From a virus, in IMG/VR virus record IMGVR_UViG_3300042542_003272, positions 1 through 20,080 of that record: DNA of 20,080 nt. One strand, 5' to 3'. The translations under genes and the position numbers were made by a program. Below are positions 334 to 20,080 of this stretch, piece after piece. The notes under the pieces were generated by a model, which was not told the DNA's origin, searched no databases, and saw nothing but the letters and a program-made list of their open reading frames with translations. Each line of letters begins with the position of its first letter. Positions within the stretch are counted from its first letter, which is position 1.

Positions 334-350
334 TTGGCACGCTATTTGCG
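334..350 (+). promoter_or_regulatory. Sigma-54 (-24/-12) promoter, site 1
   Basis: TTGGCAC at 334-340 and TTGC at 346-349 are separated by five bases. GG (336-337) and GC (348-349) therefore have the strict 10-base spacing of RpoN promoters, whose consensus is TGGCACG-N4-TTGC. The match is complete, including the G after CAC. With C349 as -12, transcription would start near 361. The site lies in the gap after the partial gene and heads a unit that ends at the terminator at 1353-1381. The same gap also allows a weaker sigma-70-like reading (TTGGCA, 16 bases, TATCCT), so the sigma-54 assignment is strong but not exclusive. Confidence 0.7.
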
Positions 351-685: not shown

Positions 686-1327
686 ATGTCCGCTAAGAAC
701 CTGTTCGCCCTCACCCTCGCAGCCGTGTCCATCAACTTCCTTCAAGACGTTCGCGTCATCAAGGCCTCGAAGAAAGACAAGGATGCCGCCAAGGCCAAGG
801 GCGTTGCCGAAGACTCCGCCGAATACCCGAAGGACAAGCAGCTGCCGCTTGTCCGCCCGGATTTCAGCGACAAGCCCAACGCCGTCGCGTTCATCGGCGC
901 CTTCTATGACGCCGCTGAGAAGACTAAGGCCGGCAGCGCCGACGAGTTGCTCGCGAAGGTGTTCCGCGCGCGCACCGGCGATGCCACCGAGCAAGCCATC
1001 ACGGCTGACGGCGAACTCGACCCCGATAAGTATGTCAAGTTCCTGACCAGCGAAGTGTCTGGGACTAAGACCCTGTCGCAGCTCGAAGGCGAGAAGTCTG
1101 CCCTCGCGACCGAGCTCATTACCCTCGGCGAGTTCTATCAGCTGAACGAGAGTGACGTCGCCGCGCTCAATACCGCCGGCTATAGCGACGCTCAGGCACT
1201 GCTGCTCGTGATCAGCAACAAGCGCCGCGCGTGGGGCGAGATCGGCGCCGTCATCGATGCGCGCAAGGCAGAGGCCGCGAAGAAGAAGGCCAAGAAGGAC
1301 GCGAAGGAGGCGCAGAAGACTGCCTAA
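686..1327 (+). CDS. Ala/Lys-rich protein, 213 aa, unknown function
   Basis: I chose the ATG at 686 rather than the in-frame ATG at 644. The 686 start follows the preceding TAA by four bases, has the TACTATG context common in this window, and the extra 14 residues would overlap the upstream ORF. The protein begins MSAKNLFALTLAAVSINFL, is mostly helical and charged in the middle, and ends in a tail dominated by Lys and Ala (about residues 190-213) that could bind nucleic acid. It has no clear signal peptide and no recognised domain. It is followed directly by a strong terminator and lies in the unit headed by the sigma-54-like promoter, so it is a candidate for the main product of that unit. 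Confidence 0.8.
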   Translation: MSAKNLFALTLAAVSINFLQDVRVIKASKKDKDAAKAKGVAEDSAEYPKDKQLPLVRPDFSDKPNAVAFIGAFYDAAEKTKAGSADELLAKVFRARTGDATEQAITADGELDPDKYVKFLTSEVSGTKTLSQLEGEKSALATELITLGEFYQLNESDVAALNTAGYSDAQALLLVISNKRRAWGEIGAVIDARKAEAAKKKAKKDAKEAQKTA

Positions 1328-5033: not shown

Positions 5034-5813
5034 ATGATAAAACTAAACCTAACTGACGAACAGAAAGCAGCGAACGTCGCAGCGTTCGCAAAGCTACACC
5101 CGGACGTCGAGTATAAGCAGACGGCTGCCGCCGCTGACAGCTTCATTACTATCACGCCCGCGGGCAAGGAAGTTAAGAAGCTCGCGCAGCGGTTCGCGGC
5201 GATGAAACATCCAGTGCTAATCACCGGCGAGTCAGGCACTGGCAAGGAGCTAATCGCCCGCATCCTGCACGGCGAGCGCCCGTATCAATCGTTCCGCGCA
5301 GTCAACTGCGCCGGGATAACAGACACACTGTTCGAATCAGAGCTCTTCGGCTACGAAGAAGGCTCATTCACGGGCGCGCTGAAAGGCGGCCGCCGGGGCA
5401 TGATCGAGCAGGCACAGGACGGCACGCTGTTCCTCGATGAGATCGGTGACATGCCTGTGTCACAACAAGTTAAGCTCCTACGCGTGCTTCAACAGCGCGA
5501 GTTCTATCGCGTCGGCGGACACAGCCCTATCAAAGCGGAGTGCCGGTTCGTGTTCGCGACGAACAGAGACCTAGGAACCGCGGTCTCCGATGGCACATTT
5601 CGTGCTGACTTATTCTTCCGCATCTATCAGCTACACATCCATATCCCGTCGCTCGCGGAGCGGCCGGATGACGTGTTGCTAATCATCAAAGCCGAGTGCG
5701 ACAAGCTCGGCATGAGCTATGACGACTTGCCGCCGGTGAACGAGCTCCGGTTCAATGAGGGCAACGTGCGTCAGTTACAGGGCGAAGTGCTACGGGCTTT
5801 TTATAGACCATGA
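5034..5813 (+). CDS. Minimal sigma-54 activator AAA+ ATPase (bEBP core), 259 aa
   Basis: The complete central domain of bacterial enhancer-binding proteins is present: Walker A GESGTGKE (65-72), NCAGI (91-95), ESELFGYEEGSFTGA with the sigma-54-contacting loop GSFTGA (110-115), Walker B TLFLDEIGDM (131-140), sensor I ATNRDL (175-180), arginine-finger segment FRADLFFRI (189-197) and sensor II GNVRQL (243-248). This family uses ATP to remodel closed RNA polymerase-sigma-54 complexes. The usual GAFTGA has Ala replaced by Ser. Only about 60 residues precede Walker A, with no receiver, GAF or PAS domain. The protein stops 11 residues after sensor II, so the Fis-type HTH is missing. It probably acts from solution. 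Its stop overlaps the next start (ATGA). Confidence 0.92.
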   Translation: MIKLNLTDEQKAANVAAFAKLHPDVEYKQTAAAADSFITITPAGKEVKKLAQRFAAMKHPVLITGESGTGKELIARILHGERPYQSFRAVNCAGITDTLFESELFGYEEGSFTGALKGGRRGMIEQAQDGTLFLDEIGDMPVSQQVKLLRVLQQREFYRVGGHSPIKAECRFVFATNRDLGTAVSDGTFRADLFFRIYQLHIHIPSLAERPDDVLLIIKAECDKLGMSYDDLPPVNELRFNEGNVRQLQGEVLRAFYRP

Positions 5814-7471: not shown

Positions 7472-8355
7472 GCTTCTCTCCACCTGTTCCCAAATCTCCG
7501 GACCATCGCATCATCTTTCTCAACGCGACAGCGTTGAAATCCCTCAGCTGCGAAGATCGCTACTACCACCAGTGCGTCAGCGGCTGGACCGATCGCGTCG
7601 AGAACCCGATCTTTAGTGTAGGCAAAGCCATTCACAAGTTCGCCGAAGAGATGGCAAAGGGCACCGACGAAATCGAGGCCATGAGCGCGGGCTGCAAGCA
7701 GCCCGGCGTGACAGACAAGGCCGCGATCGCAAAGGCGTGCGCCGGCTACCGCGCCGCGGGGCATTACCCGCCGCTCATCATCAACGGCGAGACGTTCGTT
7801 GAGCAGCGGTTCTGTGTGCCGTTCGTAGAAGTCCTCAAGGACAATCTCACTTACGAAGTCTATCTCGTCGGCCGCTTCGATCACATCGCACACACGAAGC
7901 ACGGCGTCGTCATCACAGACTATAAGTCAACCCGCAAGTGGGACTTCGGCGACGTCACGCGGGCCTACGCCGACGACGTGCAGTTCCTGTTCTATTACTG
8001 CGTCGCTCGGCAATATGCCTACGAGATTTTCAACGGCGACATGGCCGTCGCGAACGACGCGTGGAATGGGCGCTTGTTCACCCGCGTTTGCGCTATCATG
8101 CTGTCCAAGAAGCCGCAGCCACAATGGATGATGGGTCCGCTGTGGTCTCCGCCCGAGCACTTGTGGTCTGAGTTCCTGACCGACCTACGCTCGCACGTTG
8201 TGCCTAAGATCGTCAACTTGCATCACCGCCAGTATCTACCGCGTCGCGACGGCCTGTTCAAGAACCTGTGCCCGACGTGCAACTATGCGGATTTGTGTCT
8301 AAGGGAGCAGCCGGAGGCTTACGAACGCAGAACGTATAGTCCTTTAACTTGGTGA
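7468..8355 (+). CDS. PD-(D/E)XK nuclease with Fe-S cysteines, Cas4/RecB-like, 295 aa
   Basis: Motifs of the RecB/Cas4 nuclease family occur in order: a His in GKAIHKFAE (H56), an Asp in LVGRFDHI (D138), the D-x-K core ITDYKST (D151, K153) and a Gln/Tyr helix DDVQFLFYY (Q172). The ends carry cysteines in the arrangement of the 4Fe-4S members: one near the N-terminus (C28 or C36) and three near the C-terminus (CPTCNYADLC, C268, C271, C277). Such enzymes cut or resect DNA ends with metal ions. In phages they often accompany an annealing or recombination protein, here the Sak4-like ATPase at 8964. The start overlaps the preceding stop. Confidence 0.87.
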   Translation: MSFSPPVPKSPDHRIIFLNATALKSLSCEDRYYHQCVSGWTDRVENPIFSVGKAIHKFAEEMAKGTDEIEAMSAGCKQPGVTDKAAIAKACAGYRAAGHYPPLIINGETFVEQRFCVPFVEVLKDNLTYEVYLVGRFDHIAHTKHGVVITDYKSTRKWDFGDVTRAYADDVQFLFYYCVARQYAYEIFNGDMAVANDAWNGRLFTRVCAIMLSKKPQPQWMMGPLWSPPEHLWSEFLTDLRSHVVPKIVNLHHRQYLPRRDGLFKNLCPTCNYADLCLREQPEAYERRTYSPLTW

Positions 8356-8367
8356 CTACACACTGTT

Positions 8368-8688
8368 ATGAAACTAATCAAACAACGCGACCTGATTCGA
8401 ACAGCTGCTCAGCGATACGAAGAACAACTGTTCCACACATTCGGACGCTATCCTGCGCGTATCGAAGTTTTAGCAAAACTAAGGAAGTTAGATGCTGAGA
8501 CGGCTACAGCCTCGGAGATTGATGAGATCATTGGTGTTAAAAACTGGTGTAATAGTTTTTGCGACGAATGCAATGAGAACGTTTCAGACGTAGTCCAAAT
8601 CGGCGACGAACCAGACTATGAAAGTCACACAGCGTGGATATGCAAAAAGTGTGCACCAAAACTCATAGCATTATTGCAACAACTATGA
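8368..8688 (+). CDS. Zinc-ribbon protein, 106 aa, unknown function
   Basis: The N-terminal 50 residues are helical and basic (MKLIKQRDLIRTAAQRYEEQ...), followed by a zinc-ribbon-like half with CDEC (65-68) and CKKC (92-95), about 24 residues apart, plus an extra C61. Similar small phage proteins with C-x2-C pairs around a beta-hairpin are common and mostly uncharacterised. The gene is A+T-richer than neighbours. It starts 12 bases after the nuclease and its stop overlaps the next start (ATGA at 8685-8688). Confidence 0.75.
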   Translation: MKLIKQRDLIRTAAQRYEEQLFHTFGRYPARIEVLAKLRKLDAETATASEIDEIIGVKNWCNSFCDECNENVSDVVQIGDEPDYESHTAWICKKCAPKLIALLQQL

Positions 8689-8957
8689 GCTCCAATCCCT
8701 ACCCACAAATCTACCGCTTCGTAATCGTCGACGTTCCGCCTATTCCGATCGAACTGTCTGCGCGGTTCAGTGACGCCGTCGGCAAACCCGGCCACCGGCA
8801 ACAAGCCCTCCTGCACGCGCTCGATCTGAGCGTGCGTTTCAACCGCTCGCGCGTCGCTATCTATCACGGCGACACGCGGGTTACGACCGTAGGTAAATCT
8901 CCGTTCGAGACTACTACGGTTGGCACAGTGATTGCTTCTATACTCTCTCACCGGTAA
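8685..8957 (+). CDS. Unknown small protein, 90 aa, containing sigma-54 promoter in its 3' end
   Basis: The chosen start ATG at 8685 overlaps the preceding stop. The open frame further upstream is a shadow of the zinc-ribbon gene. The protein starts MSSNPYPQIYRFVIVDVPPI and is compact, with a beta-rich start, a helix (HRQQALLHALDLSVRF) and a Thr-rich end. No family is recognised. The sigma-54-like promoter at 8920-8936 lies within its last codons (about residues 79-84), so the end of this gene is also regulatory DNA for the next unit. Confidence 0.7.
   Translation: MSSNPYPQIYRFVIVDVPPIPIELSARFSDAVGKPGHRQQALLHALDLSVRFNRSRVAIYHGDTRVTTVGKSPFETTTVGTVIASILSHR
8920..8936 (+). promoter_or_regulatory. 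Sigma-54 (-24/-12) promoter, site 2
   Basis: TTGGCAC (8920-8926), five bases, then TTGC (8932-8935) and T. GG at 8922-8923 and GC at 8934-8935 are 10 bases apart, exactly as in site 1 at 334-350. The predicted start is near 8947, 17 bases before the ATG of the Sak4-like gene at 8964. The site therefore heads a unit of three genes closed by the terminator at 10601-10627. It lies inside the end of the preceding coding region, so its sequence is partly constrained by coding, but the match is complete over all conserved positions. Confidence 0.7.
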
Positions 8958-8963
8958 ATCACT

Positions 8964-9692
8964 ATGATACCTGTTACACCTAATAAACCTCCCGTCACGT
9001 CTGTCCAGTCTCAACCCGACTTGCCATCCAATCCATACCCGCGCACGCTGATCGCCGTGGTCGGTCCGAGCGGCACTGGTAAGTCCACCTCGCTGCGCAA
9101 CCTCCCGCTTGATAAAACCGCAATCGCGGACTGCGAGCGCAAGGGTATGCCGTTCCGCACCGCGCAAGCACTGTTCTCCCCGAACCGCGTGCAGGAATTT
9201 CGGGACTGGTTCAGCAAACAAATCAAGTCCCCCGACATTCAGATCATCGTCATCGACAGCATGACTGCGCTCGTCGATATGCTCCAGACAGAGTGCGAAG
9301 CGTCGTATAAAGGCTTCGATATCTGGAAGTATTACAACGATGGTATCGGCGACCTGTGTCGGCTGTTCAAAACGTCAGGCAAGTGCGTCGTCATCACCGC
9401 GCTCGACGAGATTGTGCAGATGCCCGACACGATGGGTAACATGACCACTCAGCGCCGCATCTATGTGCAAGGCAAAGAGTGGGCAAACAAGGGCATCGAG
9501 TCTGAGTGTCTCGCAGTCTGGTATAGTCACGGCAAGCGCTCGAAAGAGACGGGCAAGATTGAGTATCTGTTCGGCACGCAGACCGACGGCATCACGAAAG
9601 CCAAGACCCCACAGTTCTGGGGCTTGAATGACCCCGAGCCGAATGACCTACACGCGGTCTTGTTGAAGGCGGCGAAGGCAATTAACTCTTAA
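8964..9692 (+). CDS. Sak4-like RecA-fold ATPase (single-strand annealing/recombination), 242 aa
   Basis: Walker A is GPSGTGKST (34-42) and Walker B IIVIDSMTAL (94-103) in a small RecA-type core, with a later beta-strand GKCVVITALDE. Length and layout match the phage nucleotide-binding/AAA_24 family that includes Sak4-type recombinases, which assist annealing or strand exchange on ssDNA. The next gene resembles an ssDNA-binding protein, as is usual for Sak4 loci, and a Cas4-like nuclease lies 0.6 kb upstream. The first about 25 residues are Pro-rich and disordered. The gene is the first after the sigma-54-like promoter at 8920-8936. A helicase-loader role is a less likely alternative. Confidence 0.8.
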   Translation: MIPVTPNKPPVTSVQSQPDLPSNPYPRTLIAVVGPSGTGKSTSLRNLPLDKTAIADCERKGMPFRTAQALFSPNRVQEFRDWFSKQIKSPDIQIIVIDSMTALVDMLQTECEASYKGFDIWKYYNDGIGDLCRLFKTSGKCVVITALDEIVQMPDTMGNMTTQRRIYVQGKEWANKGIESECLAVWYSHGKRSKETGKIEYLFGTQTDGITKAKTPQFWGLNDPEPNDLHAVLLKAAKAINS

Positions 9693-9730
9693 CATCACTT
9701 TCCACTCTCTCACCTAGAGGGTGCCTCACA

Positions 9731-9761
9731 AAACAAACAAACAAACAAACACAATAATACA
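9731..9761 (+). promoter_or_regulatory. Unstructured AAAC-repeat leader before the ssDNA-binding-like gene
   Basis: Five tandem copies of AAAC (9731-9750) followed by ACACAATAATACA lead into ATG 9762. The leader has no G and no Shine-Dalgarno. It lies in the widest gap of this unit (9693-9761). An unstructured A/C-rich leader like this would favour ribosome loading independent of Shine-Dalgarno pairing, for example through S1, and fits a gene needed in large amounts. That role is inference. Confidence 0.5.
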
Positions 9762-10286
9762 ATGCCTGCTATCGATCGTTCCCAAATCGTCTCACGCGGT
9801 ATGACCCCGAACGGCCTCTATACGGTCCAGATTCTGGAGGTTAAGAACGCGCCCGCCGCGAGCGGCACGCCGCAGACGGTGCTCGAACTCCAGATCGTCG
9901 CCCCGGCGACAGTCAAACACGGCGACACGACCTACGAGGTCGCCGGCACTAAGTGCGAGAAGCGCACGTGGTGGTCTGAGAAGGCTGCCGCGAAGTCCAT
10001 CGAGATGTGCGCGGATATTGGATTGCCAAACGCGAACACCGCCGAGACCACCGAAGAACTCCAGACCGCACTCGAAGGTCTCAAGGGTATGTTCATCAAC
10101 GCCCTCGTCGAGGGCCGCGAGCGCATCAAGCGCACGACCCCGCTGCCGGGTCAGAAGCCGTGGGACGCTGAGCCCGTGCGTGACGAGAACGGCAACGTCG
10201 TGACCGACGGCTGGGAGATCACTAACGTGAGCTTCCGCCGGGGCACGCTCCGCGACATGGACGGCAACTATCCGTTCAGCAACTAA
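9762..10286 (+). CDS. Probable ssDNA-binding/OB-fold-like phage protein, 174 aa
   Basis: The N-terminal part is beta-rich (GLYTVQILEVKNAP, TVLELQIVAPA, KCEKRTWW), as in OB-fold or DUF669-type proteins. It is followed by a helical middle (AAAKSIEMCADIG, TEELQTALEGLKG) and an acidic/aromatic end (DMDGNYPFSN). Phage genes of this size directly after a Sak4-like ATPase are commonly ssDNA-binding or annealing partners, and that context is the main reason for the call. No diagnostic catalytic motif is visible. The A/C-rich leader implies strong translation. It is one base from the next start. Confidence 0.55.
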   Translation: MPAIDRSQIVSRGMTPNGLYTVQILEVKNAPAASGTPQTVLELQIVAPATVKHGDTTYEVAGTKCEKRTWWSEKAAAKSIEMCADIGLPNANTAETTEELQTALEGLKGMFINALVEGRERIKRTTPLPGQKPWDAEPVRDENGNVVTDGWEITNVSFRRGTLRDMDGNYPFSN

Positions 10287-10287
10287 T

Positions 10288-10584
10288 ATGTCACAACTCC
10301 CCTACACACCCATCGGCACGAACGTGCTGCTGCGTGCACCAAACCCCGCGAGTGTCGGCGGCATCATTGTCCCTGACACTGTCAAGGCACCCGAGCGGCG
10401 ACCAGTCTTTGAACTCTGCGCAGTCGGCCTGGACTGCGAAATCGTCGGCGCCGGGCTCGTCGACTCCACTGTCTATGTCAAGCACGGCGGATCGCTGTGG
10501 CCGTTCATGCCCGAGGACGCGAAGCGCGACGAATATCTCTACTACTGCGCCGACGAGAGTGACATCGCGGCGGTGGTGAATTGA
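10288..10584 (+). CDS. GroES-like co-chaperonin, 98 aa
   Basis: Length and landmarks fit the Hsp10 family: the opening PIGTNVLLRA (like PLHDRVLVK), the mobile-loop-end motif GGIIVPDTVK (24-33, like GGIVLTGSA), a central F-x-x-C-AVGLDCE strand, and an ending LYYCADESDIAAVV that closely parallels the GroES end (L-I-x-x-SESDILAIVE). GroES caps GroEL and assists folding. Phage versions such as T4 gp31 redirect host GroEL to large phage proteins. The spacing DSTVYVKHGGSLWPF replaces the usual GD.V.....G loop. It is the last gene before the terminator at 10601 in the sigma-54-headed unit. Confidence 0.75.
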   Translation: MSQLPYTPIGTNVLLRAPNPASVGGIIVPDTVKAPERRPVFELCAVGLDCEIVGAGLVDSTVYVKHGGSLWPFMPEDAKRDEYLYYCADESDIAAVVN

Positions 10585-10600
10585 GTGTAATCTAAACACG

Positions 10601-10627
10601 CCGGATGAACAGAGTTCATCCGGTCTT
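10601..10627 (+). terminator. Intrinsic terminator
   Basis: A perfect 10-base-pair stem CCGGATGAAC (10601-10610)/GTTCATCCGG (10614-10623) with loop AGA is followed by TCTTTTAG. It lies 16 bases after the GroES-like gene stop and closes the unit that begins at the promoter at 8920-8936. The next gene starts only 15 bases after the T-run, so it needs read-through or a promoter overlapping the hairpin. I see no clear one. Confidence 0.85.
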
Positions 10628-10641
10628 TTAGTTTATATCAA

Positions 10642-11193
10642 ATGAAATACACCCTTACTGGCCAACTCCCTCGACACATTTACTGCTGGGTAGACACCCG
10701 CCACACGCACAAAGCCGGCGATGGATTCGCCCGCGCCGTTTGGTTTGGCATAGTCTCCTATCCCGGCCGCATGTGGGGCTGCACGGTCATGCTCGAATCA
10801 GGTGCAATTTATCGCAACCTGCCAGCGCACGCGATCTGCTTTGATCCACTGCCAACCGGCGCGTGGACTCCGCAGGACGCGCAGACGTGGGATTGCTACG
10901 GCCTCGAATTTACCGCGCTAGAATACGACTTCTTGCGCGGACTAGAGTGCAAAGTGCGCGCCAACGGAAAAGAGCACATTGGCGAATACCTGTTCACAGT
11001 CGCACCAGTCGGCGACGGCTTTAGCGCTTACCCAGAGCAGGCCAAAGAATTCACATTCGTCAAACTGGACAGCGGCTGGATGACAGTGCAGCCGACCAAC
11101 CATATCGTGTTCCGCGAGCGTAGCTTCACGGATAACAAGCTGGAGTTTCCAACCGGAATGAAGAGACAGCTAGAAGTGTGGACAGTTGAGTAA
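10642..11193 (+). CDS. Conserved phage-type hypothetical protein, 183 aa
   Basis: The start is ATG 10642, after an AT-rich leader TTTATATCAA with no Shine-Dalgarno. The protein is beta-rich and aromatic, with characteristic stretches PGRMWGCTVMLESGAIYRNLP (with PAHAI following), WDCYGLEFTALEY and KLDSGWMTVQPTNHIVF. I have the impression that such proteins recur in phage genomes next to DNA polymerase genes, but I know no function. No signal peptide or membrane segment. It ends nine bases before the polymerase N-terminal gene. Confidence 0.75.
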   Translation: MKYTLTGQLPRHIYCWVDTRHTHKAGDGFARAVWFGIVSYPGRMWGCTVMLESGAIYRNLPAHAICFDPLPTGAWTPQDAQTWDCYGLEFTALEYDFLRGLECKVRANGKEHIGEYLFTVAPVGDGFSAYPEQAKEFTFVKLDSGWMTVQPTNHIVFRERSFTDNKLEFPTGMKRQLEVWTVE

Positions 11194-11202
11194 TTTTAGA
11201 AT

Positions 11203-12615
11203 ATGCCAACAACCATAATCCTCTCCAATCTCGACCGCTATGCACGCGAGAACGCCACGATGCTCGTCGGGCCGCCCGCGGATTTCGTGCGCGAAGTGTT
11301 AGGTGACGAAGAATACTCGAACGCGCATATTCGCCTCGCGTCTGACCCGCGAGCACTGCCCGCCGACACTACCCATATCCTGTGCCTCGGCGAACTCGCA
11401 CTTAAAACGTGGATGGGCTATGACGGCCTCGACGCGTGGCGCGGCTACGTGACGCTGACGACCCCGCGCGGCGTGCCGCGGGCTGTGCCCACCGTCGCAA
11501 CCTACCTGCCCATTGACTGCGTAGATGTCAAGGACTACGAAGGCGGCGACGACGGCGACGACGATGACGCCGCGGGTAACAACAAAGACACCGCGCCAAC
11601 AGCTAGAAGCAACTATAGGTTCTGGTTCACGAAAGACGTCGCGAAACTCTACTCCAAACCCGCGACGCTCAAGTTCCAGTCAGCGTGCATCGAGCCGACC
11701 ATGTTGGAGTGGGAGAAATTGAACACGGTCGCCGGCTCCACTATCTACTTCGACATCGAAACACACCCCGAGACGAACACTTTGCAATGTTTCTCGCTCG
11801 CGGTCAACGACGGCCCGGTTTTGACGGTCGGCGTGTATGACTGGACGGGTCGACTCATATGCCCGACTGACACTCTGTCTACCCTCGCGCGCCTCTTTAC
11901 GCGCAACCGGGTCGTGATTCACAATGCCTCGTTCGACCTGCCGTTCTTAGCTGTGAATTATCGCGTGCCATTCGGACGCGACATCGCGGACACTATGGCG
12001 ATGCACCACCGCTGCTATCCCGAGGCTGAGAAATCACTCGCGCACGCAATCAGTCTTTGGATTAACTCACCCTATCACAAGGGCGACGCGGGCACATTTC
12101 ATCCGCGAAACCGGGCGCAGTATGTCCAATTATTGACCTACAATATGCGGGACGTTTGCACTTTGCGGGCAGTCTATAAGGCGCAGATGGCACACGCCTC
12201 GCGCGACGCCGGGCTCTTCACGTCCGTGGCCCTCGCGAACGATAGCATCTACCCATATCTCGTCGCCGGGTTGTATGGCTTTAACATCGACCTACAGAAG
12301 AGGATGAGTCTAATCAAGGACCTCGAAATCCGCGGCCGCGCTTATCAAAAGATCCTCGACGCTTTGGTTGGTTCTCCCATGAACTCCGGCTCACCGAAGC
12401 AGTGCATCGACTACTTCCACGGCGACATGGGCTACGAGGTCGTGAAGAAGTCGAAGACCGGTAGTGGCCCGAGCGTGGCGGGCGATGCTTTATACCTGCT
12501 CTTACTTGCGCACCCTGAGAACCCCGTCCCGCGGGTCATCCTCGCGATGCGGGACGTTGACAAACAATTAAGTCAGTTGCAATTTAAACCTTTGAATTTC
12601 ATACACCAGTCATGA
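11203..12615 (+). CDS. Split family A DNA polymerase, N-terminal half: UDG-like domain plus 3'-5' exonuclease, 470 aa
   Basis: Exonuclease motifs of the DnaQ/PolA type are complete: Exo I YFDIETH (D184, E186), Exo II HNASFD (N241, D245) and Exo III YNMRDV (Y313, D317). Residues after about 340 match the start of a PolA thumb (MNSGSPKQCIDYF at 393-405, KKSKTGSGPSV, PRVILAMRDVDKQL). The protein then stops at 470 without any palm or fingers, which are encoded at 14323-15309. Residues 1-100 resemble a uracil-DNA-glycosylase-type fold (MLVGPPADF, HILCLGELALKTW, LDAWRGYV), and an Asp/Gly-rich linker (112-130) follows. It should provide proofreading and combine with the C-terminal half. The stop overlaps the next start at 12612. 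Confidence 0.85.
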   Translation: MPTTIILSNLDRYARENATMLVGPPADFVREVLGDEEYSNAHIRLASDPRALPADTTHILCLGELALKTWMGYDGLDAWRGYVTLTTPRGVPRAVPTVATYLPIDCVDVKDYEGGDDGDDDDAAGNNKDTAPTARSNYRFWFTKDVAKLYSKPATLKFQSACIEPTMLEWEKLNTVAGSTIYFDIETHPETNTLQCFSLAVNDGPVLTVGVYDWTGRLICPTDTLSTLARLFTRNRVVIHNASFDLPFLAVNYRVPFGRDIADTMAMHHRCYPEAEKSLAHAISLWINSPYHKGDAGTFHPRNRAQYVQLLTYNMRDVCTLRAVYKAQMAHASRDAGLFTSVALANDSIYPYLVAGLYGFNIDLQKRMSLIKDLEIRGRAYQKILDALVGSPMNSGSPKQCIDYFHGDMGYEVVKKSKTGSGPSVAGDALYLLLLAHPENPVPRVILAMRDVDKQLSQLQFKPLNFIHQS

Positions 12616-12839
12616 CAGCTCAAGAGACGCTCGCAGCCCTCGCGGCTGTAACCATTACGGTCAAATCAGCGGCCGAGATTCCCGGCTCAAGCAAATGCCC
12701 GCGCTGCTGGCACTGGCATACCATCCAAGGCAACTATCACGATCTCTGCGACAAGTGTTGCAAGATATTGATAACTGACTTCCCCGATCACCCTTCTGTT
12801 CCTCACATCAAAAACGCTTACAAACAATGGACCCGCTAA
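12612..12839 (+). CDS. Small zinc-finger protein, 75 aa, inside the split polymerase
   Basis: The centre holds KCPRCWHWH (C29, C32) and CDKCCK (C46, C49), a four-cysteine zinc finger similar in spacing to the C-terminal zinc finger of isoleucyl-tRNA synthetases and Fpg glycosylases. The N-terminal 25 residues are Ala/Thr-rich and the end is basic (NAYKQWTR). It starts inside the stop of the polymerase N-terminal gene (ATGA) and overlaps the next start at 12827. It is the first gene of the cassette separating the polymerase halves. It may be a DNA-binding accessory to the polymerase or ligase. That is inference. Confidence 0.7.
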   Translation: MTAQETLAALAAVTITVKSAAEIPGSSKCPRCWHWHTIQGNYHDLCDKCCKILITDFPDHPSVPHIKNAYKQWTR

Positions 12840-13000
12840 CTAAAGACCACTGCGAGATAGCCACGGACGAAGACCAGCGTTGGCACGACCAGCAAGAGTC
12901 CAAGATCGACGCCGACTACGACGAGGAAGATCGCCCCAAATACACAGCCCGACAGCGCTGGCTCGACGGCGTTGACAACGGTAACCGTGATCGTATATGA
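12827..13000 (+). CDS. Small acidic protein, 57 aa
   Basis: ATG 12827 to TGA 12998-13000 encodes a strongly acidic, Asp/Glu/Arg-rich peptide (MDPLTKDHCEIATDEDQ..., ending GVDNGNRDRI) with no hydrophobic core, so probably disordered or a single helix. It overlaps the zinc-finger gene by 13 bases and the ligase start by four (ATGA at 12997-13000). It fills an otherwise empty gap in a continuous coupled chain, which is the main support for it being real. Function unknown; an interaction peptide is possible. Confidence 0.6.
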   Translation: MDPLTKDHCEIATDEDQRWHDQQESKIDADYDEEDRPKYTARQRWLDGVDNGNRDRI

Positions 13001-13815
13001 CAAATCCTCCCCTCTACTCCGCCGAAATCGCCCGCAGCCTCATGCACGGATTGCCATTCAACGGGATGCCCATGTTGCCGGCGTTGGTTAGTGAGAAACT
13101 AAATGGCCTTCGCTGTGTCTACATGCCCGGCAAGGGCTTTTATTCGAAGACAGGCAAGCGCTGGCGCGACGGGGTCTTGGACCACATCGTAGTCAACAGC
13201 GACATTCCTGTCGACGGCGAACTCTACTGTCGCGATATGCATCTGCAAGAGATCGTCGAGAACGTGGGCGTGAATAACTTGATCGCGGGGCCACGCGCCG
13301 CCGAGATTAAACTCCACGCATTCGACGTCATTGACAAACGCGCGCCGGCGATCGAGCGCTATGAGACCGTAATGAACGTGCGCAACGCAAGCACGAATGT
13401 CATCGCTCATCATCAGATGATTTATGAACTCGTCCGCGATTACAAGATCGGCTACGACTATGCCAAGCGCGTTGGTATGGAGGGTCTAATGGTCAAGACG
13501 GTCGGTTCGCGCTATGCTCGCGGGCGAACCGGTCAGTTGTTGAAACTTAAATTCTTCCACCACGACGAAGCGCCCGTCGTGCGGTTCGTGGAGGGCGAAG
13601 GGAAAGCCGAGGGTTGCGTAGGCGCGTTTGTGTTCAACTCGCCGCGCGGCGCGGAGTTCGAAATCGGGACGATGCAGCTGTCGTATGAGACCCGCCGGCG
13701 GCTATGGGCCGAACGCGACCGTCCTTACGTCGCGCGGTATAAATACGTGGCACTGTCAACAGACCTCATCCCGCAGAACGCGAGCGTCGAGGCTGTGTGG
13801 GAGGATCAGTTGTGA
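12997..13815 (+). CDS. ATP-dependent DNA ligase, 272 aa
   Basis: Nucleotidyltransferase motifs appear in order: motif I SEKLNGLRC with the AMP-accepting Lys (K34) and R39, motif III-region VDGELYC (E75), HAFDVID (107-113), motif IV EGLMVK (162-167) and motif V LLKLKFF (181-187). A short OB-like end follows (EGCVGAFVFNSPRG, FEIGT). It would seal nicks using ATP by way of ligase-AMP and DNA-adenylate. Motif I has Asn where most DNA ligases have Asp (KxDG), a variant I believe occurs in phage enzymes. The minimal size fits phage ligases. It lies between the two polymerase halves, and its stop (TGTGA) overlaps a GTG-started remnant of the polymerase palm gene. Confidence 0.85.
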   Translation: MTNPPLYSAEIARSLMHGLPFNGMPMLPALVSEKLNGLRCVYMPGKGFYSKTGKRWRDGVLDHIVVNSDIPVDGELYCRDMHLQEIVENVGVNNLIAGPRAAEIKLHAFDVIDKRAPAIERYETVMNVRNASTNVIAHHQMIYELVRDYKIGYDYAKRVGMEGLMVKTVGSRYARGRTGQLLKLKFFHHDEAPVVRFVEGEGKAEGCVGAFVFNSPRGAEFEIGTMQLSYETRRRLWAERDRPYVARYKYVALSTDLIPQNASVEAVWEDQL

Positions 13816-13856
13816 GATACCCCACTCAATACAAGATAACCGGCACGCGTATATGA
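13812..13856 (+). pseudogene. Remnant of the original start of the polymerase palm gene, interrupted by the HNH gene
   Basis: GTG at 13812, inside the ligase stop, opens a 14-codon frame RYPTQYKITGTRI that ends at TGA 13854-13856, overlapping the HNH gene start (ATGA). TQYKITGTR matches the TQYVITGTR at the start of the downstream polymerase half, the motif that in PolA enzymes runs into (T)GTxxxRLSS. The palm gene therefore probably once began here and was cut between the Arg codon (13848-13850) and the following Ser codon when the endonuclease gene arrived. It may still be translated as a coupling peptide. Confidence 0.6.
13824..13850 (+). repeat. Diverged direct repeat, left copy (encodes TQYKITGTR)
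   Basis: This 27-base segment matches 14335-14361 at 20 of 27 positions by eye, and both encode TQY-(K/V)-ITGTR in the polymerase frame. Several differences are synonymous (ACT/ACC, ACC/ACA, CGT/AGG). The copies flank the HNH endonuclease gene. Confidence 0.75.
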
Positions 13857-14347
13857 TTAAACTAAGAACAGGCGGTCGCGATTGCATAACTAAACACGGC
13901 TATGCAACACGTGAAAATCGACATCCATTGTATGGACGATGGAAAGGTATGGTGCAGCGTTGCTATGACCCTAGCGCTGCTTCATATAGAAACTACGGTG
14001 CAAAGAATATTGGAGTTTGTGCCGCATGGCTTGACTTCAAGAACTTCCTAGACTGGTGGCTTACACAGACGTTAGCAACAACTGACAAAGTCGAACTGCA
14101 TCGAAAGGATTCAACCAAAGACTATAGCCCCGATAACTGCGAAATACTTCCACTATCTGAGCATCGCACATTATCAAAGTCTCTACGCGTTAGGTGCGTT
14201 ACCACTGGCAAAGAGTATGCTGACTGTCAGCTAGCCGCTCTGGATAACAATCTTGGACGCAATAGCGTTAGTCGTGCTATACGACTGCGATACGGTAAAA
14301 TTAAAGACTTACAATTTGTTCTATGCGAACCTGCACCCAATACGTAA
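13853..14347 (+). CDS. HNH-type homing endonuclease, 164 aa
   Basis: The start ATG 13853 is used. The frame is open further upstream but there it is an Arg-rich shadow of the ligase. Residues 24-70 (HPLYGRWKGMVQRCYDP, YRNYGAKNIGVCAAWLDFKN) match the family of phage and intron-associated endonucleases with L-x-x-x-W-x-x-M-x-x-R-C-Y followed by YGxxxI.VC..W. Then come ELHRKDS and YSPDNCEI (residues 81-98), the HNH-like core. The end (RCVTTGKEYADCQLAA...SVSRAI) looks like a NUMOD-type DNA-recognition helix. The gene is visibly A+T-richer than its neighbours. It starts at the polymerase remnant's stop, and its last 25 bases overlap the downstream polymerase start. There is no room for a group I intron core, so it is free-standing. 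Confidence 0.82.
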   Translation: MIKLRTGGRDCITKHGYATRENRHPLYGRWKGMVQRCYDPSAASYRNYGAKNIGVCAAWLDFKNFLDWWLTQTLATTDKVELHRKDSTKDYSPDNCEILPLSEHRTLSKSLRVRCVTTGKEYADCQLAALDNNLGRNSVSRAIRLRYGKIKDLQFVLCEPAPNT

Positions 14348-15309
14348 TAACAGGCACGAGGTCATTCCGGCTAGCTAGCCGTATGTGGTTCGATCAATAT
14401 GGATCTCAGCTACAAAACCCCGGCAAGTCAATCATCGAAATCTACTGTGCTCCAAATGGTCGGGTTATTGTGCAAGCAGACCAAGCAGGTGCAGAGGCTC
14501 TGATCGTCGCATACGAGTGTAAGCCCGGCAACTACCGCGCGCTGTTCATCAATGGCATCAAGCCGCACACGTTCCTCGCCATGCACATCTTCGCGGACGC
14601 CCGCGCGGATTGGTTCGCGGGGATAGAGCCAGCCACGTTCTGGCTCAGCAAGTCACCAGAAGAGCTCCGTTTACAAGCTAACTGGAAAACGCTCGATAAG
14701 CGCATCAAAGACAGCGATAAGGAATACGCCATCGGTAAGCGCACCGCGCACGGCAAGTCCTATCGCATGGGCTGGCGAACATACCAACTGGCAAACCTCA
14801 AACAAAGCGACGGCACACTCGTCTTGAACCGCCGAGAGTGCATTGACTTCCTCTCGAAATTCGACGTCCTGTTTCCAGAGGTCATCGAGGGTCAAACTGA
14901 GACCGAATACAAAGTTCGCTCAGCCCGCGAACTGCGCAACAAGTTCGGTCACCCGCGGCGCTTCGAAAAGATCCTCACAGACAGCTATATCCGCGAAGCG
15001 ATAAGCTGGGTGCCTCAGTCTACAGTAGGCTGTCTAACGCACCAAGCGTTCATTAACGTGCAGCGACTGATCGAGCGCGACAACCGATCTCAATGGGACT
15101 TAGTTTCCAACAAGCACGACAGCCTCGCGGTCGAATGTCCAGTTTCTGATGCTACCGACGTGGCCCAGATCTTGCTTTCAGAACTCCGCGTCCCGTTCGT
15201 CGGCCGCGACGGCGTCGAGTATCGCATGGGCGCCGAAGCCGCCGTCGGTCGCAACTGGGGTAAGAAGACCAAGTATAATCCTGACGGGATGCTGGAGCTT
15301 AAACTCTAA
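14323..15309 (+). CDS. Split family A DNA polymerase, C-terminal half: palm and fingers, 328 aa
   Basis: The protein begins MRTCTQYVITGTRSFRLASR, the PolA segment before the palm (GT..GRLSS), followed by SQLQNPGKSI. Motif A is VQADQAGAEA (D53, E58), motif B KRTAHGKSYRMGW (139-151) and motif C NKHDSLAVE (H265, D266). Both catalytic Asp residues are kept, so it should be active. Motif C is HDS rather than the usual HDE, and motif B is the KR..HG..Y.MG form rather than R...K...YG. It lacks any exonuclease or thumb and must join the protein from 11203-12615. The start lies inside the end of the HNH gene. Confidence 0.87.
   Translation: MRTCTQYVITGTRSFRLASRMWFDQYGSQLQNPGKSIIEIYCAPNGRVIVQADQAGAEALIVAYECKPGNYRALFINGIKPHTFLAMHIFADARADWFAGIEPATFWLSKSPEELRLQANWKTLDKRIKDSDKEYAIGKRTAHGKSYRMGWRTYQLANLKQSDGTLVLNRRECIDFLSKFDVLFPEVIEGQTETEYKVRSARELRNKFGHPRRFEKILTDSYIREAISWVPQSTVGCLTHQAFINVQRLIERDNRSQWDLVSNKHDSLAVECPVSDATDVAQILLSELRVPFVGRDGVEYRMGAEAAVGRNWGKKTKYNPDGMLELKL
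14335..14361 (+). repeat. Diverged direct repeat, right copy (encodes TQYVITGTR)
   Basis: Partner of 13824-13850. It lies at codons 5-13 of the polymerase C-terminal gene, and its first half also encodes the last residues and stop (TAA 14345-14347) of the HNH gene. The synonymous divergence from the left copy argues against a recent duplication and suggests that the endonuclease gene brought this flank from a related polymerase. Confidence 0.75.
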
Positions 15310-17756: not shown

Positions 17757-20080
17757 TTATTTCAACTCGTAAGTTCCGCCTTCTTCCCAATTCAGCTTGA
17801 GCACCTTTGCTCGCTTGACGTCGTTGGGTTCTTTACTCGCGAGCAGCAATCTCTTCTGCTCAAGCGCCTTATTAACCGCCTCGGCGACCAGCTTCTTCGC
17901 ATTATAGACCTCGTCGAGTCCCATCCCGGCGACGAGGTTTTCTTTGCGATACGTTTTCCAGAGCTCGGGGTTCGACTTCTCAAGCCACTTGTCGAACGCA
18001 GCGTCTTCACTCGGACCCTTCACGCTCACGTCGGGCGTATCGAGATTCGCCGTTGATACAATCTTCTGCGCGATCTCACGCACCTCATCGACGGTCTTCG
18101 CCTTGTTAAACTGCGTCGTGAGGTTAAACGGGTTGGCCGTGACCGCCGGACGCAGCGTAGTGTTCATCGCCTCATATCGCGAGCGGGCTTGTTCAATCGG
18201 GTCCTTAGTCTCACCACCCACGAGCTTACTAATGTCGCGCCAGTTTGATGAGACCTTGTCGAGCATCGCGTCGACGGCTTTAACATAGTCGTCATACGAG
18301 TAGTCGCGTTTGATCTCTTGTAAAGCAGCGAACTGCTGTAACGTGTTCGGCGCAACCTCGATACCCAAATTCCTCGGCATCTGTTGGTTGCCGACGACGA
18401 CGTTCGCAAACGCCGTGATCGCCGGGAGCACTTGTAGATCGCTCAGCTTTTGCGTTAGATACTTGAGCTTATTTGGATAGCCCGCGGCTTCCCATTCCTT
18501 GAACGACGGATTGCGATCTTCGCGACCGAACATCGTTTGCAGTAGCGTGTTGGCCAAAGCCGTAGCCCCGGCGGCGCCTGCGAGACGTGTCGCGAGCGGC
18601 TTTACTCGCTGACCCGCACTCAGGCTGCTGTCCATTAGAGGTTTCCACGCGCGGTCAATTTGCTGATTGCTGAATGAGAATGCCCAGCGCATGATTGGGA
18701 AGAACTGCGCCCCGGCGCCGCTCGCTTTTAACAAGTGCGTCGGCTGATCCTTCGCGCCCATACTTCCTTGCGAACCCTCGACAACCCACCGCGCAACGAA
18801 GTCTTCAAGTTCCTCTGGCGTCTTCGCGCGCCACTCAGGAATGCCAACTCGTTTGAAGAACGCCTCGTCGTTCTTGGCCATCGCCTCTTTGGCCCGCGCG
18901 ACGCCCGCCGCCGAGCTCACAGCCTGCATGAACTTGTTGAGCGCATCTACGCCCGCGAGACGATTGCCTGCGCGGATGGCGTCGCGGAACAGCTCAAGCA
19001 CTTGGCCGTTCTCGAATGCTTCCCCAACTCTCTGAACATCACCGCTCAGGTTGCCAGTATCTTTAATTAGCCCGCGAGCCTTCAAGTCGCGATACTTATT
19101 CACGCCCTCAAGCACGCCCTTGATTGAGTTCTTCACCCCGGCGTCGTCAACCAACGTGCCGAACATGTTGATCGTGTCGCGAATCGTTGCGCCCGTTTGC
19201 ACGGCGAGCGGATTAGCCACGCCAGACAGCCGCTGCGCGATCGTTTGACGCCCGGGATTTATCTGCAACGCAAAACTATTGAGCGCCGCACGGAACAGTG
19301 CGTCCGTCGTATCTCCCACAGCGCCCGCCTCATCAGGTCGTTGCGTCAACCTTCCAAGATCATCCAACGACTCACGCTGCCCGCGACTCATTGGCCCTAG
19401 CAGCTTGTCTTGATCGATGTATTTGTGCCGCGCCATCTCGAACGCATACTTCGTAGCGTAGCGATTGATCGCATCCTGCGTATTGCCTGCCCAGCCCGGC
19501 GGCAGCGGAATTGTCATCGGACGGTGTAACGCGTCGAACTCGAGGTCGGCGTCCGCGGTCTTGTTCTCGATGTCGAAGCGCTTAATTTCGGTGTCGATTT
19601 GCTTATCAGACAGTCCGTTCTGCCGTGCCCAGTCGCGAAACTCGTCGAGCTTGATATCGCGAACCGGTCTACCGGTCGCTTTATCAATGCTCGTGTCTTG
19701 AAGTTCTTTCACTACCTTCATGCTCAGAGCCTCAGGCACCCAGAACTCATCGACGATCAGCGGCCGCCACTCTTTGCCCTCTTGAATGCGCGGACCCTCG
19801 CGCGCGGCACGTTCGCCGAGCTCGCGCATCAGGTTGCGCGTTTCGAGGTATGCTTGCTCGACCCGCGGGCTCATGCCGCCGGCCCACTTTTTGCGCCACG
19901 CGCGTTCGTATTGGAGGATGTCTTGGAGGTCAGACCGCTCGGAGCTATTTAGCTTGTTCCAAAAGCTCTGGTTCTCATTGATGATCTTCGTGGCATCGAT
20001 CGACGCGACCGTCGCGGTCTCGTTCAATTTGCGATGACCGTAGCGGGCAGTCTCGTCATTGGTTCTATCAGCGTGATCGC
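17757..20080 (-). CDS. Very large helical protein, probably virion-associated (C-terminal part, 5' end outside window)
   Basis: The minus-strand frame is open from the right edge of the window to TAA at 17757-17759. A TTG at 20025-20027 is not a credible start because the frame continues upstream (reading ...DETARYGHRKLNET), so about 774 C-terminal residues are visible. The protein is almost entirely helical, Ala/Lys/Glu/Asp-rich and lacks enzyme motifs. A mildly hydrophobic part (ATRLAGAAGATALANTLLQTMFG) and FFPIMRWAFSFSNQQIDRAW occur mid-way. This fits large internal virion or polyvalent proteins of phages that travel with the DNA. It could also be a tail or ejection protein. Orientation opposite to the replication block suggests that virion genes lie on the minus strand to the right. 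Confidence 0.75.
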   Translation of the reverse strand, partial: DHADRTNDETARYGHRKLNETATVASIDATKIINENQSFWNKLNSSERSDLQDILQYERAWRKKWAGGMSPRVEQAYLETRNLMRELGERAAREGPRIQEGKEWRPLIVDEFWVPEALSMKVVKELQDTSIDKATGRPVRDIKLDEFRDWARQNGLSDKQIDTEIKRFDIENKTADADLEFDALHRPMTIPLPPGWAGNTQDAINRYATKYAFEMARHKYIDQDKLLGPMSRGQRESLDDLGRLTQRPDEAGAVGDTTDALFRAALNSFALQINPGRQTIAQRLSGVANPLAVQTGATIRDTINMFGTLVDDAGVKNSIKGVLEGVNKYRDLKARGLIKDTGNLSGDVQRVGEAFENGQVLELFRDAIRAGNRLAGVDALNKFMQAVSSAAGVARAKEAMAKNDEAFFKRVGIPEWRAKTPEELEDFVARWVVEGSQGSMGAKDQPTHLLKASGAGAQFFPIMRWAFSFSNQQIDRAWKPLMDSSLSAGQRVKPLATRLAGAAGATALANTLLQTMFGREDRNPSFKEWEAAGYPNKLKYLTQKLSDLQVLPAITAFANVVVGNQQMPRNLGIEVAPNTLQQFAALQEIKRDYSYDDYVKAVDAMLDKVSSNWRDISKLVGGETKDPIEQARSRYEAMNTTLRPAVTANPFNLTTQFNKAKTVDEVREIAQKIVSTANLDTPDVSVKGPSEDAAFDKWLEKSNPELWKTYRKENLVAGMGLDEVYNAKKLVAEAVNKALEQKRLLLASKEPNDVKRAKVLKLNWEEGGTYELK

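Follow-up and report, generated by a model that had tools for sequence, protein, structure and literature searches.

A putative sigma-54-dependent promoter before a phage Sak4-like gene, and related sites in phages that encode an AAA+-only activator

The DNA analysed here, IMG/VR virus fragment IMGVR_UViG_3300042542_003272, is a partial record of an uncultured phage, and its whole stretch of 20,080 bases is referred to below as the window. We consider it likely that a -24/-12 site at position 8920 is a sigma-54-dependent promoter belonging to a phage-wide regulon, and that this regulon is opened by an activator that the phage itself encodes and that consists of an AAA+ domain only. Judging by sequence, a sigma-54 promoter system of this kind appears to be family-wide, extending over freshwater and marine relatives. 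The features on which the argument turns are as follows.

334-351, TTGGCACGCTATTTGCGT (core 334..350, TTGGCACGCTATTTGCG), + strand: second -24/-12 (sigma-54) site, intergenic, predicted +1 at 361
686..1327, + strand: gene of unassigned function 3' of site 334, followed by a closing terminator (1355-1374)
5034..5813, + strand: sigma-54 activator of 259 aa, AAA+ domain only (Pfam Sigma54_activat, E 1.5e-59)
8685..8957, + strand: small ORF whose 3' end overlaps site 8920, kept in same-species contigs
8920-8937, TTGGCACAGTGATTGCTT (core 8920..8936, TTGGCACAGTGATTGCT), + strand: -24/-12 (sigma-54) site matching the consensus, candidate promoter
8964..9692, + strand: Sak4-like ATPase, a protein of ssDNA annealing/recombination and the first in its unit (phrog_2872, E 2.2e-18; Pfam AAA_24, E 4.7e-13)
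9762..10286, + strand: SSB-like protein (OB fold), by AlphaFold2 model and Foldseek
10288..10584, + strand: small protein with weak GroES likeness (Cpn10, E 0.0085)
10600..10629, + strand: intrinsic terminator closing the unit, a perfect 11-pair stem with a 3-nt loop (10600-10624), then CTTTT
L114:483-1778 (G003 18708-20003), sister freshwater clade, homologues L195-L208: full-length phage sigma-54 factor directly 3' of a sigma-54-type promoter

Results

The pattern TTGGCAC-N5-TTGC-N-T has exact matches at the two positions of the original prediction, 334 and 8920, both on the + strand, and nowhere else in the window. The sites display the TGGCAC-N5-TTGC of sigma-54 promoters, in which GG and GC are invariant and a set distance apart; at 8920 the -24 GG occupies 8922-8923 and the -12 GC 8934-8935, the invariant pairs falling at -25/-24 and -13/-12. 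The site points at the Sak4-like gene, whose ATG at 8964 lies behind a 17-nt leader counted from the predicted +1 at 8947, the very distance initially proposed. That two such sites are hard to obtain by chance, likewise claimed, is borne out by dinucleotide shuffles of the window, 0 of 1000 of which contained two exact sites. The expected number was 0.01, and the shuffle means per window were 0.001 for the exact pattern and 0.016 for TTGGCAY-N5-TTGC. A third candidate, at 10948 on the - strand (TTGGCGCGCACTTTGCA), was taken as chance; it falls within a coding region and does not satisfy the strict consensus.

Site 8920 is not strictly intergenic, since it overlaps the last codons of ORF 8685-8957. 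Three contigs of the same species (L209, L210 and L065), which diverge from the window by ~2-8% over most aligned stretches, show no substitution across 8907-8986, and the terminator sequence at 10600-10624 is identical in all three. Upstream of ~8690 their DNA is replaced relative to the window, the gene content of window positions 8355-8702, just 5' of the promoter-bearing ORF, being swapped. The gene at 686-1327 and the one that follows the equivalent site in G010 share no similarity.

The unit following site 8920 had been described as encoding a Sak4-like ATPase, an ssDNA-binding-like protein and a GroES-like protein, and these assignments fared unequally. The Sak4-like assignment is solid by profile comparison, the protein matching families phrog_2872 and phrog_124. 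The second protein is supported as SSB-like by its predicted fold: the AlphaFold2 model (pLDDT 77.5) has ssDNA-binding PrgE as its top Foldseek match (E 2.7e-4), followed by SsbA, with modest TM-scores of 0.4-0.55, and the gene is located 3' of Sak4 in most relatives. GroES-like identity of the third is only suggestive, its Cpn10 match of 16.5 bits lying below the Pfam cut-off of 21.1 and the PDB cpn10 match reaching E 0.2. The perfect terminator said to span 10601-10627 is present at 10600-10624, followed by CTTTT. Between the helicase-activator operon and Sak4 no clear terminator was found ahead of 8964, so that this operon could read through into Sak4.

The window does encode the sigma-54 activator that was originally noted. 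The product of 5034..5813 combines the hallmarks of bacterial enhancer-binding proteins, namely a Sigma54_activat AAA+ domain, Walker motifs (Walker A GESGTGKE) and a GAFTGA-type loop (GSFTGA), and ends after the AAA+ domain. It has no receiver domain, and the usual C-terminal HTH DNA-binding domain is absent from it and from its AAA+-only relatives. The same design, mostly 240-290 aa long, is conserved among relatives, and the GAFTGA-type loop, the contact with sigma-54, is present in nearly all of their activators.

Relatives among freshwater and marine IMG/VR phages were collected via the activator and Sak4, and contigs from 24 records were read; a search for closer relatives carrying the helicase found none. 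Across 28 related contigs (1.02 Mb, ~6% of it intergenic), YTGGCAYR-N5-DGCW has 70 matches, 54 of them intergenic. When the spacer is changed by -2, -1, +1 or +2, the same contigs give 26 matches in all and 0 intergenic ones, a control that is independent of the hand-set weight matrix. A co-directional start codon lies within 200 nt of 44 of the 54 intergenic sites, the opposite orientation being seen for 3. The pattern TGGCAY-N5-TTGCW has 50 matches in 50 records and its reversed-pattern control 0, while records with long HTH-bearing activators contain 2 matches in 165 kb. Some scanned records are near-duplicates, so that the site counts are only partly independent; the intergenic sites comprise 9 different sequences in the freshwater group and 32 in the marine group. 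The genome-wide excess of sites that the prediction anticipated is thus found in related phages, including G005 and G010, which are probably complete, given that their contig ends match (G010 has a 127-bp terminal repeat).

The sites recur in three kinds of places. Class 1 sites lie on the + strand, about 4-6 kb 5' of the activator; they include window site 334 and sites in several marine relatives, and occur in 9 of 10 freshwater relatives, the tenth contig stopping short of that position. In the window and these nine relatives the distance to the activator is about 4.2-5.7 kb. Class 2 sites, also on the + strand, lie right after the activator stop in marine relatives, often with the +1 30-65 nt before the next gene; the activators of these phages are only ~38-47% identical to that of the window. 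Class 3 sites are on the - strand, ~12-18 kb from the activator and 125-154 nt before a conserved gene of 425-494 aa. From gene order, its cluster holding a terminase-like match, this gene is probably that of the major capsid protein, a name taken from the order alone (the AlphaFold2 model of the candidate has a pLDDT of 32). A site inside the structural cluster implies a regulon wider than the recombination genes. Class 2 also takes in the sites beside Sak4. There the site precedes the gene in the window and in the distant G001, where the +1 is 19 nt from the start; in the nearest relatives, G009 and G010, its counterpart comes immediately after the Sak4 gene, and the next gene in G009 is SSB-like. 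The analysis supports three parts of the original idea, namely that a sigma-54 promoter lies ahead of the Sak4 unit, that the phage makes an activator and that a phage has more than one site. Its confinement to middle genes was too narrow: the supposedly small regulon is larger in relatives, adding the activator-holding operon and a promoter within the structural gene cluster.

In a sister freshwater clade, the gene behind the class 1 site encodes a full-length sigma-54. Its activator-interacting region and its core- and DNA-binding domains are all recognised (Pfam AID, CBD and DBD, 2.2e-11, 4.5e-18 and 5.3e-50), it carries the RpoN box ARRTIAKYR, and it aligns end to end, region I included, with solved bacterial RpoN (PDB 9mse, 8f1i). 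It differs from bacterial RpoN in length (431 aa versus 477 aa), in being phage-encoded and in the purine at -14 of the accompanying promoters. Fourteen such loci were retrieved from IMG/VR, and in G003 the predicted leader is 23 nt. The gene is present in 10 of the 42 records tested and absent from the window, G009, G010 and the marine records; Sigma54_DBD gave no match in the window record (G000), which is partial. PHROGs has no family for this protein. A phage sigma-54 is described nowhere in the literature searched, of which coverage was partial, and the terms sigma54, sigma-54 and RpoN do not appear in the text of the survey PMC9429907. INPHARED matches to the activator and to sigma-54 were set aside; they mostly resemble bacterial sequence within phage records, and in one of the INPHARED entries, MT121960, no site was found.

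The promoter of the sigma-54 gene bears an inverted repeat (TGCCAA-N3-TTGGCA) that overlaps its -24 element in 7 of 7 contigs tested (G003 18634-18664), and five contigs have a further TTGGCAT-N8-TGCCAA there. Autoregulation is a possible function of this repeat.

The base at -14 divides the family. It is A or G in the sister clade and in G009 and G010 (the purine group comprising G003, G006, G009, G010, G038, G039, G040, G045, G046 and G047) and T in the window and at nearly all marine sites. Classic TTGC sites are almost lacking in the freshwater clade, where the intergenic sites carry the purine. We rejected an exact correspondence between purine -14 and the phage sigma-54 gene: since G009 and G010 have the purine without the factor, and G010 is seemingly complete, the purine cannot simply be a signature of phage sigma-54. 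It may reflect the factor of the host or an earlier loss. Trees place the window as sister to G009/G010 plus the sigma-54 clade (100/100), with long branches.

Two further features of the window deserve mention. The DNA polymerase is apparently split into two ORFs, 11203-12615 and 14323-15309 (region 11203-15309), separated by other genes, of which the one at 12997-13815 looks like a ligase; an HNH-endonuclease-like ORF is also located there, at ~13628-14347. G003, G006, G009 and G010 share the split arrangement. Shine-Dalgarno-like sequences precede the starts of 0 of 17 strong ORFs in the window and ~10% in relatives. Such scarcity is a hint that the host belongs to a lineage making weak use of these sequences, though it does not pinpoint that lineage.

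Discussion

We propose the following mechanism. Host RNA polymerase and sigma-54 would bind the phage -24/-12 sites and wait there as closed complexes. Having neither sensor nor DNA-binding domain, the phage activator should be constitutive and act from solution, and would open these complexes at the expense of ATP. Expression of the Sak4, SSB-like and GroES-like genes would then wait for the activator. The same switch would serve the region 5' of the activator operon and, in relatives, the promoter within the structural genes. As the window encodes no sigma-54, its phage would need a sigma-54-bearing host; two scans of genome contigs for this host gave no match. There is a precedent for such an activator in DctD250, a truncated AAA+ fragment of DctD that, with no enhancer, is a constitutive and promiscuous activator of sigma-54 promoters (PMC3844500). 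It too comprises only an AAA+ domain, of ~250 aa, without sensor and DNA-binding domains, and by analogy the phage protein may work in the same enhancer-independent manner. However, DctD250 was made in the laboratory, and the phage activator comes from a natural gene linked to promoters of the phage. A natural sigma-54 activator that likewise has no DNA-binding domain is CtcC of Chlamydia, but it is cellular and retains a regulatory domain (PMC7482065).

The family regulon could be real and the match at 8920 nonetheless due to chance or coding constraint, with Sak4 transcribed by read-through from the activator operon. The location of the site within an ORF that related strains keep, the lack of an obvious terminator ahead of 8964 and the position of the site after Sak4 in G009 and G010 all fit this explanation. 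Yet we think it unlikely: a near-perfect consensus match is expected only 0.001-0.016 times per window, the leader of 17 nt is close to the 19 nt of the distant G001, the stretch 8907-8986 is free of substitutions among three strains that differ elsewhere, and the Sak4 unit ends in a perfect terminator of its own.

Other explanations accept the sites as functional and assign them to different proteins. Host sigma-54 activators are common, and the phage protein lacks a DNA-binding domain by which to find its targets; the promoters might depend on sigma-54 and respond to host activators that relay nitrogen or stress signals, with another role for the AAA+ protein of the phage. This is very improbable, considering that the AAA+-only activator and the sites co-occur, a site standing immediately behind the activator gene in marine relatives, and that nearly all phage activators keep the loop that touches sigma-54. 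The least probable alternative is that the sites bind not sigma-54 but another factor, such as a repressor of TTGGCA/TGCCAA dyads. The repeat at the promoter in all seven sigma-54-encoding contigs tested would suit such a repressor, but the dyad is absent from the window, G009 and G010, the second half of the site (GC at -13/-12) occurs at one exact spacing, and an activator, plus sigma-54 itself in one clade, is encoded alongside the sites. A sigma-54-dependent promoter opened by the phage activator thus remains our preferred reading of site 8920.

In the sister clade, sigma-54 itself would be supplied from a promoter of this type, and the loop can accordingly feed itself. We see about an even chance that this lineage runs its own sigma-54 system, in which a promoter that activates itself expresses sigma-54 and a minimal activator, both aimed at phage promoters with a purine at -14, the window branch using the factor of its host. 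If so, a dedicated holoenzyme could read the phage genes of the sigma-54-encoding lineage.

The timing of phage genes is known to rely on sigma-70-type factors, on phage-encoded polymerases or on antiterminators. T4 MotA/AsiA and gp55, as well as phage sigma-70-family factors, are switches that act on or replace sigma-70-type factors. Like them, the proposed system would use phage-encoded factors to steer the polymerase of the host to phage promoters in timed order; it differs in its target, which would be ATP-dependent sigma-54 instead of a sigma factor of the sigma-70 type. Such a switch is tight, because complexes stay closed until the activator arrives, and a free phage activator might also turn on sigma-54 genes of the host. 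With the promoters defined to the base, the idea is directly testable. Reliance on sigma-54, with an activator from the phage and, in one clade, a sigma-54 from the phage as well, would be one more way for phages to time gene expression.
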